A DNA stretch of 22,544 bases from Gryganskiella cystojenkinii. Its lineage: Eukaryota > Mortierellomycota > Mortierellomycetes > Mortierellales > Mortierellaceae. The number at the start of each line of letters is the position of its first letter. Within the stretch, counting starts at the first letter, position 1. The notes under the pieces are model-generated. The model did not search any database, was not told the DNA's origin, and was given only the letters and a program-made list of their open reading frames with translations. The stretch is taken from the NCBI GenBank assembly GCA_015852425.1, contig JAAAIG010000650.1, positions 1-22,544 of the forward strand, written 5' to 3'. Positions 1,717 through 22,543 of this stretch are shown here, one piece after another. The translations under genes were made by a program, and so were the position numbers.

Positions 1717-2559
1717 TTAAGGAGTGTAGCTCATATTCCGGAACTGACTAACGATGGATCTTCCATCAGTCGGCATCTCAAATCTCCCAGCCCATTGATC
1801 ATCTTCATTATGCGTCCAAGAGTTCATTGCCAATTTGAACTCTGTTGTCTTGGGATCCGCAACTTCCACATCCGACCTCTGATACACCTTTTTTCCATCA
1901 ATATACCAAGCAATGAACTCCTTCCTCCATTCGATAGCATAAGTATGCCATCCCTCCGATGCATCAAATCCTAGATCAATCTTGACAGGATGCTGTGTCT
2001 TGCCTTTCCAAACGTTCAACCAACAGACCGTTGACACGATGCCTGTGAGCTCAACATCGATCTCATTGATGCCATTGGCGATCAGGAAGAACGCTGTGAC
2101 ATGACCCTTGTTGTTGGTTGAGATCATGTCACACGAGTAGATTCCGTAATCTAACCCCGTTTCTCTTGAGATGAGCTCTCCTCCAGAGAAGGGTTTCACA
2201 GAGGATTTGGTTCCTATGGATATTTGGGCGCCATTAGGCGTGAACTGGACTTCGTCGCGAATATAGTTGCTGCTCCAACGGTCGGGACCCTTTTCGTGGG
2301 GGATGATGAATTTTGAGGCCAAGTTGGCGCTGGTGCTCACGCCGCCGTCATCAGCAAGTGCCAGAGACTCACAAAATGGTTGGCGAGTGCTCTTGGGCTG
2401 CTGAGGTTGCTCGTGGCTGAAGACTTGTTGCTCCTTATGCTGTTGGTCGAAGGGATTCAGGTTCTCCGCAATGTTATTATTGTTGTTGTTGTTGTTGATT
2501 TGGTTGTTATTATTATTGCCGCTATTAGCGCTGCGACGTTTACTCTCCTTGTTGCCCAT
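1717..2559 (-). CDS. GH16-type glycoside hydrolase domain protein with N-myristoylation-type N-terminus (280 aa)
   Basis: Single exon, ATG at 2559, stop TAA at 1719-1717. Residues 80-280 form a concanavalin A-like glucanase fold of glycoside hydrolase family 16. The signature is NEIDVELTG with E166, D168 and E170 in the E-x-D-x-E arrangement of nucleophile, assisting Asp and acid/base. Further on come GWHTYAIEW (203-211) and WYIDGKKVYQ (218-227), typical of the family's second half, and the chain ends in a terminal strand (FRNMSYTP). Known GH16 enzymes cleave or transfer beta-1,3/1,4-glucans or link chitin to glucan in the wall. The exact specificity is not readable here. Unusually there is no signal peptide: the protein begins MGNKESKRR, matching the MGxxxS/T N-myristoylation pattern, followed by Asn-rich tracts (residues 15-29). 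The frame stays open upstream to an ATG at 2796, but those 79 residues look like translated leader; the start at 2559 is my choice. Confidence 0.78.
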   Translation of the reverse strand: MGNKESKRRSANSGNNNNNQINNNNNNNNIAENLNPFDQQHKEQQVFSHEQPQQPKSTRQPFCESLALADDGGVSTSANLASKFIIPHEKGPDRWSSNYIRDEVQFTPNGAQISIGTKSSVKPFSGGELISRETGLDYGIYSCDMISTNNKGHVTAFFLIANGINEIDVELTGIVSTVCWLNVWKGKTQHPVKIDLGFDASEGWHTYAIEWRKEFIAWYIDGKKVYQRSDVEVADPKTTEFKLAMNSWTHNEDDQWAGRFEMPTDGRSIVSQFRNMSYTP

Positions 2560-5813: not shown

Positions 5814-6227
5814 TTAAAAGGGACCAAGCACAGTCATGCGCTCACACCACAAGTTTGAGGTCCTCTGCGAAGGCTTCGTGTTTACACGGATTTCTGCCCG
5901 TTCGTCAGGCGATGACCAGGGTTTATGAGCGTAGCGAGACCGTTGTAGGTTTCCGTCACATTGCACCACCTCCATGTCGTTGACTTCGATGACGTCGTCT
6001 TTCTGGTCGAATGAACCCATGGCGATCATGGATTCCATAATCGTGAGTCCATCTCTTGACCGTAGAAATAGCGAGCCCTGGACTGGTTGTGCGACTCTTG
6101 TTCTGGTAGTGACGATATGTGCAGTTACAATGACCGAGGTTCGATGACTAGACGAAGATGATCCCTTTGTGTTCTGTTGACTGTAATATTTTGATGGAAT
6201 CTCACCTCCATCCTCAGAAAAAGTTAG
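5814..6227 (-). other. Unresolved open reading segment, possible exon or gene remnant
   Basis: The minus strand is open for about 137 codons to a TAA at 5816-5814. It follows a CTAAC...CTGAG sequence that could be a branch point and 3' splice site (exon start about 6227). The translation has ordinary composition: a Gly/Ser/Lys stretch (GGEIPSKYYSQQNTKGSSSS), then VIVTAHIVTTRTRV, then MESMIAMGSFDQKDDVIEVN and NDMEVVQCDG. The first Met is at 6038. It lies just downstream of the membrane protein gene at 6503-8361. I see no domain. It could be a terminal exon of that gene by alternative splicing, a small separate gene, or a relic. Function unknown. Confidence 0.3.
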
Positions 6228-6502
6228 CAGAGAACATTATCATTGCCGTGAAAATTCAAAAATACGGAGGGGGGCACTGAGCATGGAGAGGAGTGACATT
6301 TTTATTGGGCTCAGAAAATATTTTCAATGCAAGTAAGCAACACTTTACACAAGGTGCTCTGAACATTCCTTCGCTTTTTCTTTTTCTACTCCGCCCGCCG
6401 AGAGTGGCGTTCCATACCAATCGCATGTCATCATCGTCCCTCATCATCATCATTATATTTTTTTGTCGTTGGACCTGTCTCCTTCGTTCTTCAACCTTCA
6501 TA

Positions 6503-15424: not shown

Positions 15425-17563
15425 TTAATCGCTCTCTTCTTCATTCTCTTCCCCCCCTTGCTCGATCATGCCTTCCTCTTCTTCAGCCCTGATGCATATC
15501 AGGTCCAGATTCTTGACATGTCCTTTCAAAATGGTCTCCACCTCATCATCTTCCTCAAGGTACGCAAACCCGTCTAGTGTTTCAAGATGAGTCCAATGTC
15601 TGACTACCCATCGCGCCTCATTAACATCCCACAATGTCCTTGACGATCCATTGAACATGAACATGTGCGAAAATGAGCTCATTTCGCTCCCAACAACGGT
15701 TTTCAATCGTCCTAGGTTGCGCAACTGATCGAGGCCGTACTCCAGATTTAACCGAAGAGTGCGTGCCATGGGTTGCAAAAGAGTAACGATAACATAAGTT
15801 CTACACGGTTTCATGTTCAGATCTAAGACCTCGAGATGAGTCAGACCTGCCAGTCGATCGAGTATCAAGCAGTGCGTTTCCAAGTCCGGGTCCTCGCGGA
15901 GCGAAAACGCAAGGCGAAGGTCCTTGAGTCGTGTACATACCCACGGTCGATCATCCCATAGCAAGTCCGTATCAGTCATGTATTCAGCGTCAAGCTTCTC
16001 AAGGTTGGTCATGGAACACATGATTGATTGGACGGTATCGCCTCTGACCAAGTAACAACTCCTGAGGGAGATCTCTGTAAGCCTAGTCAAGCATGCTGGG
16101 ACGGCTGCTGCCATAGCAGAGTAGGTTATGCGTCCAAAAGACGAGTGTTTCAAGCTGAGAATTCAGAGCAAAGGCAGAGACTGAAGTACAACGACAAAGT
16201 CCTCATCGTCGAACTGCTCGAAATGGACGGCGAGAGAGATTATTCGCTGACAACAAACGCCGGTCCGTGCCAAGGCTGCCAGAACAACCATAGGATTTGA
16301 TTCCGGTGCATCAATGTCAGTGACTTGAGACTTCCAAGACAATTGGACGAGATCAGGGCTTCTTTTGATCAGGAAGATCTGAATCGCGGCGATGATTGAG
16401 CTGTACCTAGGGGATGACATTTTGAGAATTTGAAGGTTGGTTTTCCCTTGGATATTTTCCAACCTGGCCATAATATCCTCTGTCGGTTGGCCGGAGGGAG
16501 TGAACCAGGGTCCAGAGAGGTCGAGAAGCCGTAAGCAAGACCATAATGGGTAACAAATCATCCATTTTTCAGGCGATATGATCTCCAGTTCCTCGACTTT
16601 GAGACTCGTCAAAGCATTACAGTCAGTGACAGTATCTAGGAGTTCCTTAGTACAGAGAGTCTGTAGACACAGGTTCTTGAGCGTTGACTGGTGGAGTTTA
16701 ACCATGACTGCCACTGGCAACTCGTCCTCGTCGTAGACAGGGTTAAGATCGCCGTTGAGAGTGAATCGCAAATCAGATAGGTGTGGGAGGATAAAAGGCC
16801 CTTCACGGAAACGACTACTGGAAAAAACGATATCCTCCAGGGATTGGATGGATACGGCAAGGGTATTGATATGGTTCGCATGGTTGCAAATGGTTGTGGT
16901 ATCGAGATTCAAGAAGCGATGATAAGGATGATTCTGCTGGTTTGTTTCCACCACCGACCAGACTCGAGGCAGAAATGTGCGATACCATTCCTTGCTGACC
17001 CGGAGACAAATCGCAAGGCTAGGTCGTTCAAGGTTCCCGCCAATGAGAAAAAGGAGCTCGGGGATCCTCAGAGGGCTTATCTCGTAACCGGGAACGACGC
17101 GAGGTGCATAACTTCTGCGGGCCTGGTTCATACCAACGATAAAATTGTCCTCTGGAATGACTGCACTAGGACCTGCCGCATCTGTTGTAGGGTTACTTGA
17201 TATTGCTTTCATTTGGGGTGCAGGAAGCGATGACAGTCTAGAAGCACACGGCTGTCCGCTGAGAGAAGAAGGACGGCGACTGACTCGAGAATACACGGTT
17301 CGCTCAGGACTTTTAAGAAACGCGGCCAATCTACGACCAAGAGATCGTCGGATAAAGGTGCGGTCATGATGGTAATTCAAAGTGATGATGACAACGGAGC
17401 TGGAGGACGGGGATGTCATGCGGAAAGTGTTCGAGAATATGACAGGAGGAGCCACTGATGAGCGTCCCCGGGCAGTGGATTGAGGATTGGACTGAACTCT
17501 TAGGGCCGAGGGGTTTGAGGTAGGATGAAACATCTGTTTGACAGAGCCGAAAAAAATAGGCAT
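15425..17563 (-). CDS. F-box / leucine-rich-repeat protein, interrupted by one in-frame TGA
   Basis: One continuous minus-strand frame runs from 17563 to TAA at 15427-15425 (712 codons), broken only by a TGA at 16165-16163 between ...VVLQSLPLL and ILSLKHSSFGRITYSAM. The F-box is at residues 163-205: ISPLRIPELLFLIGGN, then CLRVSKEWYRTFLPRVWSVV. Leucine-rich repeats follow (LTSLKVEELEI, LRLLDLSGPW, LTEISLRSCYL, LEVLDLNMKP), and then an acidic tail (EEEEGMIEQGGEENEEESD). In the known family the F-box binds Skp1 in an SCF ubiquitin ligase and the LRRs recruit substrate; the substrate is unknown. The start is uncertain: in-frame Met codons lie at 17563, 17533, 17419 and 17212, and the region before residue 118 is Ser/Arg-rich. 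If TGA is a real stop, the product is 466 residues and lacks its last LRRs. A decayed paralogue lies just upstream in the same orientation (18612-20006). Confidence 0.8.
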
Positions 17564-18611: not shown

Positions 18612-20006
18612 CTACACGACCTCCTCCTCCTCGTCGTCAACAGTCGTGATGCATTTGAGGCCCAGATTCTTGACATGATCTCGCAAGATTTCATTCATTT
18701 CATCATGGGCCTTCGAAGTATCCGAACCCCTCTAGGGTCTCCAGCCCAGGCCAATGTTCGACAACCCATCGCGCCTCACCCACGCCCCACAATGTGCTCA
18801 AAGAACAGCAAAACCTTTCCGAAGACGGATCCAACTCCTCTCCACAGCTGGTTTTAGTCAGCTCAAAGTGTGCAATCGATCCAAATTATGCTCGAAATTC
18901 AACTTTAGGGTACGTGTTTCGTGGATCAACATAGTAAGGACGACAAAAGACCTGCACGGTTTGATATTTAGATGCAGGTTCTCGAGATGCTTTGTCATGA
19001 GAGCCGGCTCAGGACCATGCGATACATTTCCTAGCCTGCTCCCAAACGGAGCACAGAAGTGAGGCGAAGTACCTTGAGTTGTGTGAAAACCCAAGGTCGA
19101 CTATGCGGTGGCCATCTTCTCGAGATTGGCCACGGCACACATGATAGCCTGGACGGTGTCCCCCTTCGCAAAATAACAACTTAGAAGCGAGATATCTATG
19201 AGTCTCATCAAGAAAATAGGGTCCTCTGTTTACATCGCGGTAAAGGTGGCGGGAGAACTAGTACCTCAAGCGTAAAACCATAAGGCACGGCATGCACCCA
19301 CGGATGTTAATCAAGTCATCGTGAGTGAACTGCTCAAAATTGATGGCCAAGGTAGTCAAAATAGCGTCTGGTCTGCGCCAAGGCTGTCATATTTTCCATA
19401 GTATTGGACGCTTGTGGATCAAGCTTTGCAACCCGTGATTTCCAAGTCAATTGAACAAAGTCTGGACTATTTGCATCAAGGCGACGATTGGCACGAATAG
19501 AAAGTACGACAGCTTGAGAACTTGTAGACTGGTTCTCTCTCGGAGCACTTGCAACTTGTCTATCGCATTCATTATCCGATAATTTTCTTCCAGAGACCAG
19601 CCCCGAGAGATCGAGACACCGTAACTGCGTCCAAAGTGTGGTGCAATCCATCCATTGATAGAGCAGTTGAGGGAACTTGAGGTAACAGGACAAGGGGATC
19701 TTCCTGAGATCCATAAGCAAAAAGAATGTTCTCTGTCGATTCCAGGGATATAACCAGGGTGTGAACATTGGCCAAGTTTGAAGACAGCGTCGCGCGATCC
19801 AGATCCATCAAGCGAGAGTAAGTGTGTCCACGTTGGTTCATCTCGAGCACAGACCAGGCTCGAGGTAGAAACGTCTGGTACCACAACTCGTTGATTCGGA
19901 GATAAATTGTTAGGGTATGCCGGTCGAGTTAAACGCCGATAAAAAGAAGCTTTGGGCCAGGGAAGGATGACGTCTTAGGTCGTTTGCTGTCGTTGTCCTC
20001 GATCAT
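18612..20006 (-). pseudogene. Decayed tandem paralogue of the F-box/LRR gene
   Basis: The ATG at 20006 begins MIEDNDSKRPKTSSF, and the F-box remnant follows: LLFIGV, a TAA at 19931-19929, then NELWYQTFLPRAWSVLEMNQ. Compare YRTFLPRVWSVVETNQ in the intact-looking copy. LRR pieces recur in shifted frames: LMDLDRATL and VHTLVISLESTE near 19790, a CLDLSGLVSGR piece near 19610, PDFVQLTWKSRVAKLDPQAS near 19440, LHLNIKPCRSFVVLTML (about 18960; compare LDLNMKPCRTYVIVTLL), EARWVVEHWPGLETLEGFGY (about 18750; compare EARWVVRHWTHLETLDGFAY), and LRDHVKNLGLKCITTVDDEE with stop TAG at 18614-18612 (compare LKGHVKNLDLICIRAEEEE). Collinearity over the full length shows a tandem gene duplication. It is also shorter than the other copy, so internal deletion is likely. 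The multiple frameshifts and early stop make it non-functional. Confidence 0.82.
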
Positions 20007-20420
20007 TGTCGCGAAAGGGATCGCGCCTGGGTGATCGTGGCGAAGACCTTTCCAAATAAAAAAGTGTCAGAGGTCGACGGTTTTGTCCCTAAATGGTGTT
20101 ATTTCTTTTTCAACCGTTTTATCGCGACCGATCTTGGTCAACATTTTGTTGCAATCCAACTTCAGTCACCCCTTGGTAGAGTATTGGTATCAACATACCT
20201 ACGTAAAGACTGATCTCTGCCTCAATTCTTTAAATCGACACTGTCGCCAAGTCACATATCATACCAATTTTGCCACTAGCTCGATAAAAGCAATAATAGC
20301 TATTAAACTTACTATGATAAAAATCGTAAAATCTCACCTGCAAAGTCTGGCGAATGTTCAGCAGCCAGTGCTTTTTTTGAGTTTTATTATCAAAGGTTAT
20401 GTACTGCCCAGTTGGGCATC
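20007..20420. other. Intergenic; no supported gene
   Basis: It lies between the start of the F-box relic and the 3' end of the defensin-like gene, both on the minus strand. It is AT-rich from about 20270 to 20400 and likely carries the defensin-like gene's 3' UTR. Open frames here are short and have no recognisable features. Confidence 0.45.
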
Positions 20421-20636
20421 TTAGATCCAGGAGCAATAGCACCTGTAGCCAGCAATTATAGGGAAACAGAATCCTGTAATACGGCCTTCATCTTTCTGAC
20501 AGTGGTCTATACAATCTTGTTTGTAGCCGGGGCATCCATAGTCGGCCTGTACTGGATGAACACTTGATGTCAGGACAATGACTAATGACGCTGTAAATGC
20601 ATAAGCAGCATACTTTCGAAGGCGTGAGGTATACAT
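20421..20636 (-). CDS. Defensin-like secreted peptide precursor with CS-alpha-beta cysteine pattern (71 aa)
   Basis: ATG at 20636, TAA at 20423-20421, no intron within the coding part. Residues 1-31 are a signal peptide: basic start (SRLRK), hydrophobic core (AFTASLVIVLTSSV), small residues before the cut (VQA). The mature part is about 40 residues with six cysteines at 35, 42, 46, 57, 66 and 68. Spacing is C-x6-C-x3-C-x10-C-x8-C-x-C, with C-x3-C (CIDHC), G-x-C (GFC) and C-x-C (CYC). That is the hallmark of the cysteine-stabilised alpha-beta fold of insect and fungal defensins. Known members are secreted antimicrobial peptides, some of which bind cell-wall precursors. The fold also occurs in peptides with other targets, so activity here is inference. 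The frame extends 19 codons upstream to 20693, but the inner ATG gives the better signal peptide. The upstream TTTTTGCAG (20713) could be the end of a leader intron. Confidence 0.75.
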   Translation of the reverse strand: MYTSRLRKYAAYAFTASLVIVLTSSVHPVQADYGCPGYKQDCIDHCQKDEGRITGFCFPIIAGYRCYCSWI

Positions 20637-20752
20637 GGTGAAGGAAGAATGAATGGAATATTGCAAATATCGAAGGACTGTGGGTGGAATCAAATATGTT
20701 CTTGGCTACACTGCAAAAACCAGATGTCAGATAGCGTATGAATCATCAATAC

Positions 20753-20950
20753 CTCTTGCAAAATTTTCGGTGGTCTAGCCGCAATCTTCAAGAAGAGGAG
20801 GTAATAAAAGAGTTCAGGTCCTCTGGTGAGCGCATCAGGGAACACTCTGATAGCGCCAAGCAACGCTTTTGCAAAGGGCTGTGAGAGGGAGAAATTCCAA
20901 TGTCGAGTACAGCACTTACAATGGTATTGTAGGTGTTACCGTCGCGAATC
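20753..20950 (-). other. Orphan exon-like coding segment with very short flanking introns
   Basis: A 126-nt segment at 20878-20753 encodes 42 residues (PFAKALLGAIRVFPDALTRG, then PELFYYLLFLKIAARPPKIL, then QE). On its 5' side is a 41-nt GTAAGT...CTCACAG intron (20919-20879), preceded by IRDGNTYNTI, which itself follows a pyrimidine tract ending CTCAAG. On its 3' side is a possible 42-nt GTATTG...TTTGCAG intron (20752-20711). All junctions are phase 0. The residues look like a real helical protein segment, but I cannot identify the protein, and upstream and downstream frames close quickly. It may be a fragment of a lost gene captured in the defensin-like gene's 5' region, or a noncoding coincidence. 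Confidence 0.4.
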
Positions 20951-21520
20951 TTGAGTATGGGGAATAGAAAGAGGTTGGTTCACGACACCTGGACGATGCC
21001 TATATTTATTATTTATATAAGCGAATAGGTGATGTAGAGGATGAAAGGCAAACGATTAGTGTTGTACCACTCCCTTTTGGACACCTGGTGAGGATGAGAA
21101 AATTCCAGGTGAGAGACAACAAATCCAGCCGGCAGCAACAGATCAGAGACGGGTGTTAGGTACATACGTTAGTTTAAGGATGAGGGATTCAGAAAGTGGT
21201 GAGTCAAAAACAAAGCAAAGGAGGCTGAGAGAACTCAGACAAAGAGAGAGTGGAGAAAACAGAATCGAAGAAATGATCAGCATTCCCGCCTATCGTAGGT
21301 GGATTATGGAATGGGGAGCATTCAGGGACAGGGACGTTCAGGGGCACTACTTTTCTTTTTTGTTTCCTAGTCATGACTGAGTCATATTAACATAATATTA
21401 TTACTGTAATATACCGCTATTAAACTTATATAATACAAAATCTTATTATTCTCTATTCATGTGTTATTCATCATTCCAGCATTGTTCTTTTATCCTGTGT
21501 CTCAAGTCGCAGCTCCAAAT
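20951..21520. other. Intergenic, AT-rich near 21375-21460
   Basis: No supported gene. An AT-rich stretch TATATTTATTATTTATATAA at 21001-21020 may serve as promoter for minus-strand transcription toward the defensin-like gene, though it lies over 350 nt from its ATG. The AT-rich block at 21375-21460 is probably the 3' UTR/terminator area of the gene ending at 21521. Confidence 0.4.
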
Positions 21521-22543
21521 CTAGACTTTTGGATTGGTAACCCAACAGCTCAAGATGGCCTCAAGTCCATTGAGAATGATGTTGAGGGCATCTGTAATTC
21601 CTTTGAGGTCGAATGGAATGCCGAACCAACCAATAAGTAAATTAGCGGCGCTAACAATACCTGAAGCCGAACCGATAAGACTTCTCAGAGCCGCCGCAGC
21701 ATCAGTGATGAGTGTGGTTGAGCCACTGTTGAGACCCTGCGTAATGTTGTTGACTATCGGTGTAAGCAAATCCGTTATGCCTTTTGGAACACCAAGTTTG
21801 TTAAGGAGGGCCAATGCGGCGTTTAGAAGCATCTGGACGGCCATGATAACGCCTTGGCATCCCCCTCCCTGTGCGCACTGAGGAGGAGGATTCGTTATGC
21901 CGACCAGGTTCAAGATGTAACCCCTGATCTGGTTAGTGGCGTCATTAGGCCCGGCGACGTCGAGGATTGTGAGAAGAGCCTGTATGGCCGCTAGGATTCC
22001 GCCAGCGGCCGTGGCCATACCAGTTTGCGCATCAACGAGCAACTTCTTAAACTCGCCCAGGACAGGGTCCACAACATAAGGACCAACGATCGGGATCTTG
22101 TTGAGGTTTTGTTGAATGAAATTAACGAAATCGGCCAAAAATCCGCTTGATCGCTGTGCGAAAATTTTGCAGGGATCCCTCCAGTCCGTCACATTGAGTC
22201 CTAATAAAGAGGAAGCAGGTAAGCGTTGCGCAGGAAAGTGAAAACAAAAAAAAAAAGTCATCAATACACTTTCATCCAGGGTCTTACCTGCACATTCTGC
22301 TGCATAACCAACAGCATCGTAAGCGAAGCCCATAACCGCCGCGGAAGATCCGTATTTTGGATCCATGGCAAGACCAATGGTCTGGTTGAGGAGCAATCCG
22401 GCAGCATTAAGCTTGGTCTGGTCGTTAGTCGCGATAGCAGAGTCGAGATCAGTGATTGCCGATGCAAACTGTACACTGAACGTTGCTGTTGCGCCTGAGG
22501 CTGCGCCAACTCTGTTATCCTTCACGGGGGTGGTGTATGCGGC
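21521..22543 (-). CDS. Hydrophobic/amphipathic, probably secreted or surface protein (5' end beyond the window)
   Basis: The exon at 22543-22288 continues beyond the right edge. The intron is 22287-22201 (GTAAGA...TTTATTAG, 87 nt), the last exon 22200-21521 (TAG). The join is AECA-GLNVTDWRDPC. About 311 residues are visible. The protein is rich in Ala, Leu, Ile, Gly and Asn, with a succession of amphipathic helices (GGILAAIQALLTILDVAG, VQMLLNAALALLNKLGVP, ITDALNIILNGLEAIL), N-glycosylation sites (NQT, NVT, NIT) and a few cysteines, including a Cys pair in a PPPQCAQGGGCQG loop. There is no charged catalytic signature. The composition suggests an extracellular or cell-wall/hydrophobic surface-associated protein; a signal peptide, if any, lies outside the window. 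I do not recognise the family. The mutation-free frame and good splice sites support a working gene. Confidence 0.7.
   Translation of the reverse strand, partial: AAYTTPVKDNRVGAASGATATFSVQFASAITDLDSAIATNDQTKLNAAGLLLNQTIGLAMDPKYGSSAAVMGFAYDAVGYAAECAGKTLDESVLMTFFFCFHFPAQRLPASSLLGLNVTDWRDPCKIFAQRSSGFLADFVNFIQQNLNKIPIVGPYVVDPVLGEFKKLLVDAQTGMATAAGGILAAIQALLTILDVAGPNDATNQIRGYILNLVGITNPPPQCAQGGGCQGVIMAVQMLLNAALALLNKLGVPKGITDLLTPIVNNITQGLNSGSTTLITDAAAALRSLIGSASGIVSAANLLIGWFGIPFDLKGITDALNIILNGLEAILSCWVTNPKV

Follow-up and report, generated by a model that had tools for sequence, protein, structure and literature searches.

The 22,544-nucleotide stretch of Gryganskiella cystojenkinii DNA analysed here (contig JAAAIG010000650.1, positions 1 to 22,544; hereafter the window) carries on its minus strand a gene that very likely encodes a secreted peptide of the cysteine-stabilised alpha-beta (CS-alpha-beta) type, made as a 71-residue precursor (Table 1). 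We are confident that the gene is functional and that its product takes up this fold, whereas the fuller statement, that it is a gene for a secreted three-disulphide CS-alpha-beta peptide acting via lipid II, is put forward tentatively, at a little less than even confidence.

The sequence-only reading of this DNA had placed an open reading frame (ORF) of 71 residues at exactly 20421-20636, leaving its strand unstated; the plus-strand reading of the frame was rejected, as the translated frame holds four stops. The signal peptide, 40-residue mature part and cysteine pattern which that reading described are all present in the translation. A predicted 31-residue signal peptide is followed by a mature part with the spacing C-x6-C-x3-C-x10-C-x8-C-x-C, which also carries C-x3-C, G-x-C (as GFC) and C-x-C (as CYC), and the precursor thereby shows the order expected of fungal defensin-like peptides, namely a leader and then a six-cysteine CS-alpha-beta pattern. 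Hydrophobicity is strong in the leader, where the best mean hydropathy over 9 residues is 2.62, and cleavage is predicted after residue 31 (V-Q-A/D-Y-G-C), at a site that conforms to the -3/-1 rule; this call, for the leader as for the cut, was made by hydropathy and cleavage rule only. The peptide is slightly anionic, with a net charge of about -1.2.

The proposed CS-alpha-beta type is supported by the predicted structure, by a sub-threshold match to a Pfam family and by the matches of a two-sequence profile to known defensins at E below 1e-3. Run on the single sequence, AlphaFold2 gave a helix-strand-strand arrangement (H8-19, E23-29, E32-38; mean predicted local distance difference test score 79.2), that is, the helix and two-stranded sheet of fungal defensin-like peptides, and the structural neighbours of the predicted fold include eurocin, a plectasin variant, plant antifungal defensins and scorpion peptides. 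The best Pfam family was PF14866, Scorpion_toxin_alpha-beta (E 1.3e-5), with 25.9 bits against a cut-off of 27 and 25.2 bits, likewise below the cut-off, for the peptide locus in the genome scan; PF00537 (E 0.017) and AtDEF-like (0.35) matched more weakly. Members of the long-chain family described by PF14866 have eight cysteines, whereas the peptide has six. PF01097 (Defensin_2) did not list the peptide at E up to 10, nor its locus when the genome was scanned at E up to 1, a negative limited by the HMMER filters, which drop most weak matches. Searched alone against PDB sequences, the peptide found weak matches only, the best being the beta-KTx-like LaIT2 (E 0.057), followed by the 2b68 defensin (0.19), eurocin (0.25) and micasin (0.66).

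Another defensin gene, of canonical type, is present in this genome, and comparison of the two sequences makes a relation between its product and the peptide probable, though not certain. In the scanned assembly (35 Mb, 1050 contigs, of which the window is one complete contig, C713), one locus exceeded the PF01097 cut-off (contig C125:6313-6414), and it belongs to a 66-residue precursor encoded at C125:6223-6420 on the plus strand (gene 6223-6423). This paralogue differs from the peptide in its C-x5 first loop and in passing the cut-offs of both Defensin_2 (31 bits; cut-off 20.4) and Gamma-thionin (29.6 bits; cut-off 25.1), and in the PDB it comes closest to 2ru0 (E 7e-6; titled actinomycesin), BmKDfsin3, MGD-1 and micasin. 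It also matches the bacterial actinodefensin model NF038042 (37.6 bits, E 2.4e-9, under the cut-off of 65), a resemblance between fungal and bacterial peptides that we record in its own right. Peptide and paralogue share a leader ending in PVxA, an x[YF]GCP N-loop, HCQ and a C-x-C near the end, and BLASTP aligns them at E 1e-6 with 31% identity over 55 residues. When cysteines were held fixed and leader and mature part were shuffled separately, the observed score was reached in 5 of 20000 shuffles; for the mature parts alone it was reached in 536 of 20000 and for the leaders alone in 1250 of 20000, and hence it is the region spanning the cleavage site that carries the relation. When the two mature parts were combined in a profile, this matched 2b68 (7e-4), eurocin (7.8e-4), 2ru0 (3.6e-3), micasin (4.7e-3), BmKDfsin3 (5.7e-3) and LaIT2 (0.18) in the PDB; the paralogue contributes some of that signal, and the fourth cysteine is out of place in the underlying alignment.

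A chance origin of the ORF is unlikely, since the window, shuffled 6400 times with its dinucleotides preserved (144 Mb; ATG-started ORFs of 45-150 residues), yielded two ORFs with a relaxed CS-alpha-beta pattern, itself written after the peptide was known, and neither of these reached an N-terminal best 9-residue hydropathy mean of 1.9 or more. An earlier run of 400 shuffles gave no pattern-bearing ORF, and in the real window the defensin-like ORF is the single one among 90 that carries the pattern. No candidate homologue of the peptide was found when 5.8 billion proteins were searched by shared words, nor did a protein search with the alignment of peptide and paralogue give one; the method needs three shared 5-residue words, so that absence is not proven by it. 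None of 77 stretches that matched a pattern in prokaryote genomes was confirmed, nor was any of 19 in viral contigs. The six cysteines, for which conservation in related fungi had been named as a check, are thus known to us from the peptide and the paralogue of the same genome, the word-based search having offered no further candidate. Literature searches on defensins of Mortierella, Mortierellomycota and Podila, on malpisins and on plectasin with lipid II gave no paper on this peptide, and none of the papers returned for Podila dealt, by title or abstract start, with a defensin of that genus.

The peptide lies within the size and charge ranges of the malpisins, 24 defensin-like peptides from two strains of Mortierella alpina (sizes 33-48, charges -3.5 to +5.4; PMC4165938), and therefore belongs to a kind already known from the Mortierellaceae, the comparison being one of size, charge and precursor type, not of sequence. 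According to the same paper, 14 malpisins have no propeptide and some fungal defensin genes are intronless; the peptide shares with the malpisins the fungal family and a signal peptide and, in its predicted lack of a propeptide, resembles one malpisin type. One M. alpina strain carries 14 members and the other 10, some of them in tandem (PMC4165938), whereas here 2 loci were found, on two contigs.

That the peptide acts on bacteria by way of lipid II is plausible. Binding of lipid II by an antibacterial peptide is the function we consider most likely, although we favour it with slightly under even confidence, and another target in membranes or channels is its main rival. A trans-kingdom group of GXGCP peptides has been set apart in which GCP follows an aromatic residue and a conserved His precedes the third cysteine; 52 of its 88 members begin with GXG, 80 of 88 have the Pro and 72 of 88 the His (PMC12284004). 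The peptide shows the short N-loop of this group as D-Y-G-C-P, the first G being replaced by D, and the His as D-H-C before the third cysteine. Eurocin and micasin similarly have a [FY]GCP or FGC-type start and a His before Cys3; from these and from plectasin the peptide is set apart by an anionic alpha-beta loop and an x8 hairpin loop. We aligned it by hand with plectasin through the cysteines, at the positions which we presume these to occupy in plectasin. In plectasin, F2, H18, K20, I22, K23, Y25, K26, Y29 and Y40 have been linked to the binding of lipid II (PMC12284004); a salt bridge of His18 is argued against in PMC13139365. In the hand alignment, 3 of these 9 are kept or conservatively replaced (an aromatic residue in the N-loop, the His and a second aromatic residue ahead of the fourth cysteine), the remaining positions hold Q, D, E, R, I and S, and the N-loop is preserved while the cationic alpha-beta loop is not. 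The label "plectasin-type" of the sequence-only reading is accordingly only loosely right: it suits the GXGCP features of the N-loop and does not suit the loop, where most lipid II-linked residues are changed.

If the peptide does act on lipid II, the leader would direct the precursor into the secretory pathway and a cut after VQA would free the 40-residue peptide without a propeptide. The mature peptide would fold, as AlphaFold2 predicts, into a helix and a two-stranded sheet, with disulphides presumably paired 1-4, 2-5 and 3-6 as in the family. Released around the hyphae, it may inhibit Gram-positive bacteria that compete with the fungus in soil; lipid II would be bound through the aromatic-Gly-Cys-Pro loop at the N-terminus, the His that precedes the third cysteine and the hairpin, while the hydrophobic hairpin tip (FPII) and the C-terminus (SWI) could touch the membrane.

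Rather unlikely, yet the strongest of the alternatives, is a secreted CS-alpha-beta peptide with a target other than lipid II, which would act on fungi or microfauna via membrane lipids or ion channels, like plant defensins or scorpion-type peptides. PF14866 as best Pfam family, although under its cut-off, and LaIT2 as best single-sequence PDB match point this way, as do the slight negative charge, the altered alpha-beta loop of the hand alignment and the plant antifungal defensins and scorpion peptides among the structural neighbours. However, similarity of fold shows no function, the paralogue is nearer to antibacterial-type defensins, and the two-sequence profile favours 2b68 and eurocin over beta-KTx, partly through the signal of the paralogue. 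A further reading, to which we give a low probability, is an anionic Mortierellaceae branch of defensins that kept the GXGCP scaffold, exchanged the cationic, lipid II-linked alpha-beta loop, has a hydrophobic hairpin tip and would be directed at something other than lipid II, e.g., the membranes of fungi or microfauna, or symbiotic bacteria that the host tolerates.

Equally improbable, in our judgement, is a secreted signalling or symbiosis peptide that would not kill, its targets being the fungus that makes it, roots or resident bacteria. It would be consistent with a small, cysteine-rich, secreted and slightly anionic product for which no close relative was found, but the GXGCP features point to defensins, and no endobacterial ribosomal RNA (rRNA) was seen among the scored candidates. 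The scan, in which 5 of 433 first-look candidates were scored, equally lends no support to the idea of resident endobacteria raised from the sequence: its only near full-length bacterial-type small-subunit match (contig C269:39909-41441) lies in mitochondrion-like DNA that has a G+C content of 27% and is open under code 4 in several frames, among them frames that look, by eye, nad2-like and homing-endonuclease-like, and this rRNA is probably mitochondrial. The other bacterial-type small-subunit match is better explained as eukaryotic rRNA. At L010:1308-1982, a eukaryotic rRNA match spans the whole 1831-position model in only 675 bases, as in a truncated or rearranged copy.

We think it considerably less probable still that the gene is a decaying or unused defensin copy, its frame open and the gene unexpressed. 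There is neither conservation evidence nor a transcript, and fragments of a seemingly broken F-box/leucine-rich repeat (LRR)-type gene adjoin it; the frame, leader and six cysteines are nevertheless intact, and promoter-, intron- and poly(A)-like signals are in place. Finally, that the frame is open by chance and no gene at all is scarcely credible: the protein, prokaryote-genome and viral-contig searches gave no homologue, but the shuffled 144 Mb held 0 signal-bearing ORFs with the motif, and the peptide is probably related to the canonical defensin of its genome and has a defensin-like fold predicted from sequence alone.

The TATA-, intron- and poly(A)-like signals around the coding sequence, of which the intron was spotted by eye, are consensus matches only; together with the ATG and the coding exon they are ordered as in a complete gene with an intron in the 5' untranslated region (5'-UTR). 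For the putative intron, an alternative match of branch site plus CAG ends at 20823.

Table 1. Predicted and putative features of the defensin-like gene (window positions).
Feature	Position	Strand	Remarks
TATA-like element	21014..21019	-	Starts 383 bases upstream of the ATG; consensus match
Putative 5'-UTR intron	20711..20919	-	GTAAGT donor 20919-20914, CTGAC branch-like site, TTTTTGCAG acceptor ending at 20711
Coding sequence of the 71-residue precursor	20421..20636	-	ATG at 20636; stop TAA at 20421-20423; single coding exon
Predicted signal peptide, residues 1-31	20544..20636	-	Cleavage after VQA; hydropathy and cleavage rule; paralogue has a similar PVDA site
Predicted mature 40-residue six-cysteine peptide, no propeptide	20424..20543	-	Translation and AlphaFold2
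AATAAA poly(A)-type signal	20383..20388	-	Starts 35 bases past the first base of the stop codon; consensus match

Elsewhere in the window, the GH16 open frame at 1717-2559 (minus strand) has its nearest match in a protein of Podila clonocystis, with 85% identity along 100% of the frame, and the next strong matches (65 proteins at E 1e-10 or better) come, by their named sources, from Linnemannia, Podila, Mortierella and related genera; this one gene places the host in the Mortierellaceae, probably in or near Podila, in agreement with the early-diverging fungus supposed from the sequence. F-box/LRR-type frames were recognised by eye at 15425-17563 and 19334-19841 (minus strand), of which the 15425-16114 frame matched LRR_4 only in Pfam (E 0.00087, under the cut-off); the 19334-19841 frames echo the first set (RSPDLVQLSWKSQV vs NSPDFVQLTWKSRV) and are perhaps a broken copy. 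The 281-residue frame at 21521-22366 (minus strand), adjoining the defensin gene, has no Pfam match at E 0.001.

We regard the annotation of this gene as secreted and defensin-like as sound; it is ordinary in kind, and its modest interest comes from the divergence of the peptide and from the pair of defensins in one genome. If made and active, the peptide would be a sequence-divergent antibiotic of a Podila-like fungus and would show, as an experiment of nature, what lipid II binding requires among the residues of plectasin; with a canonical and a divergent defensin side by side in one genome, that comparison would be a direct one.
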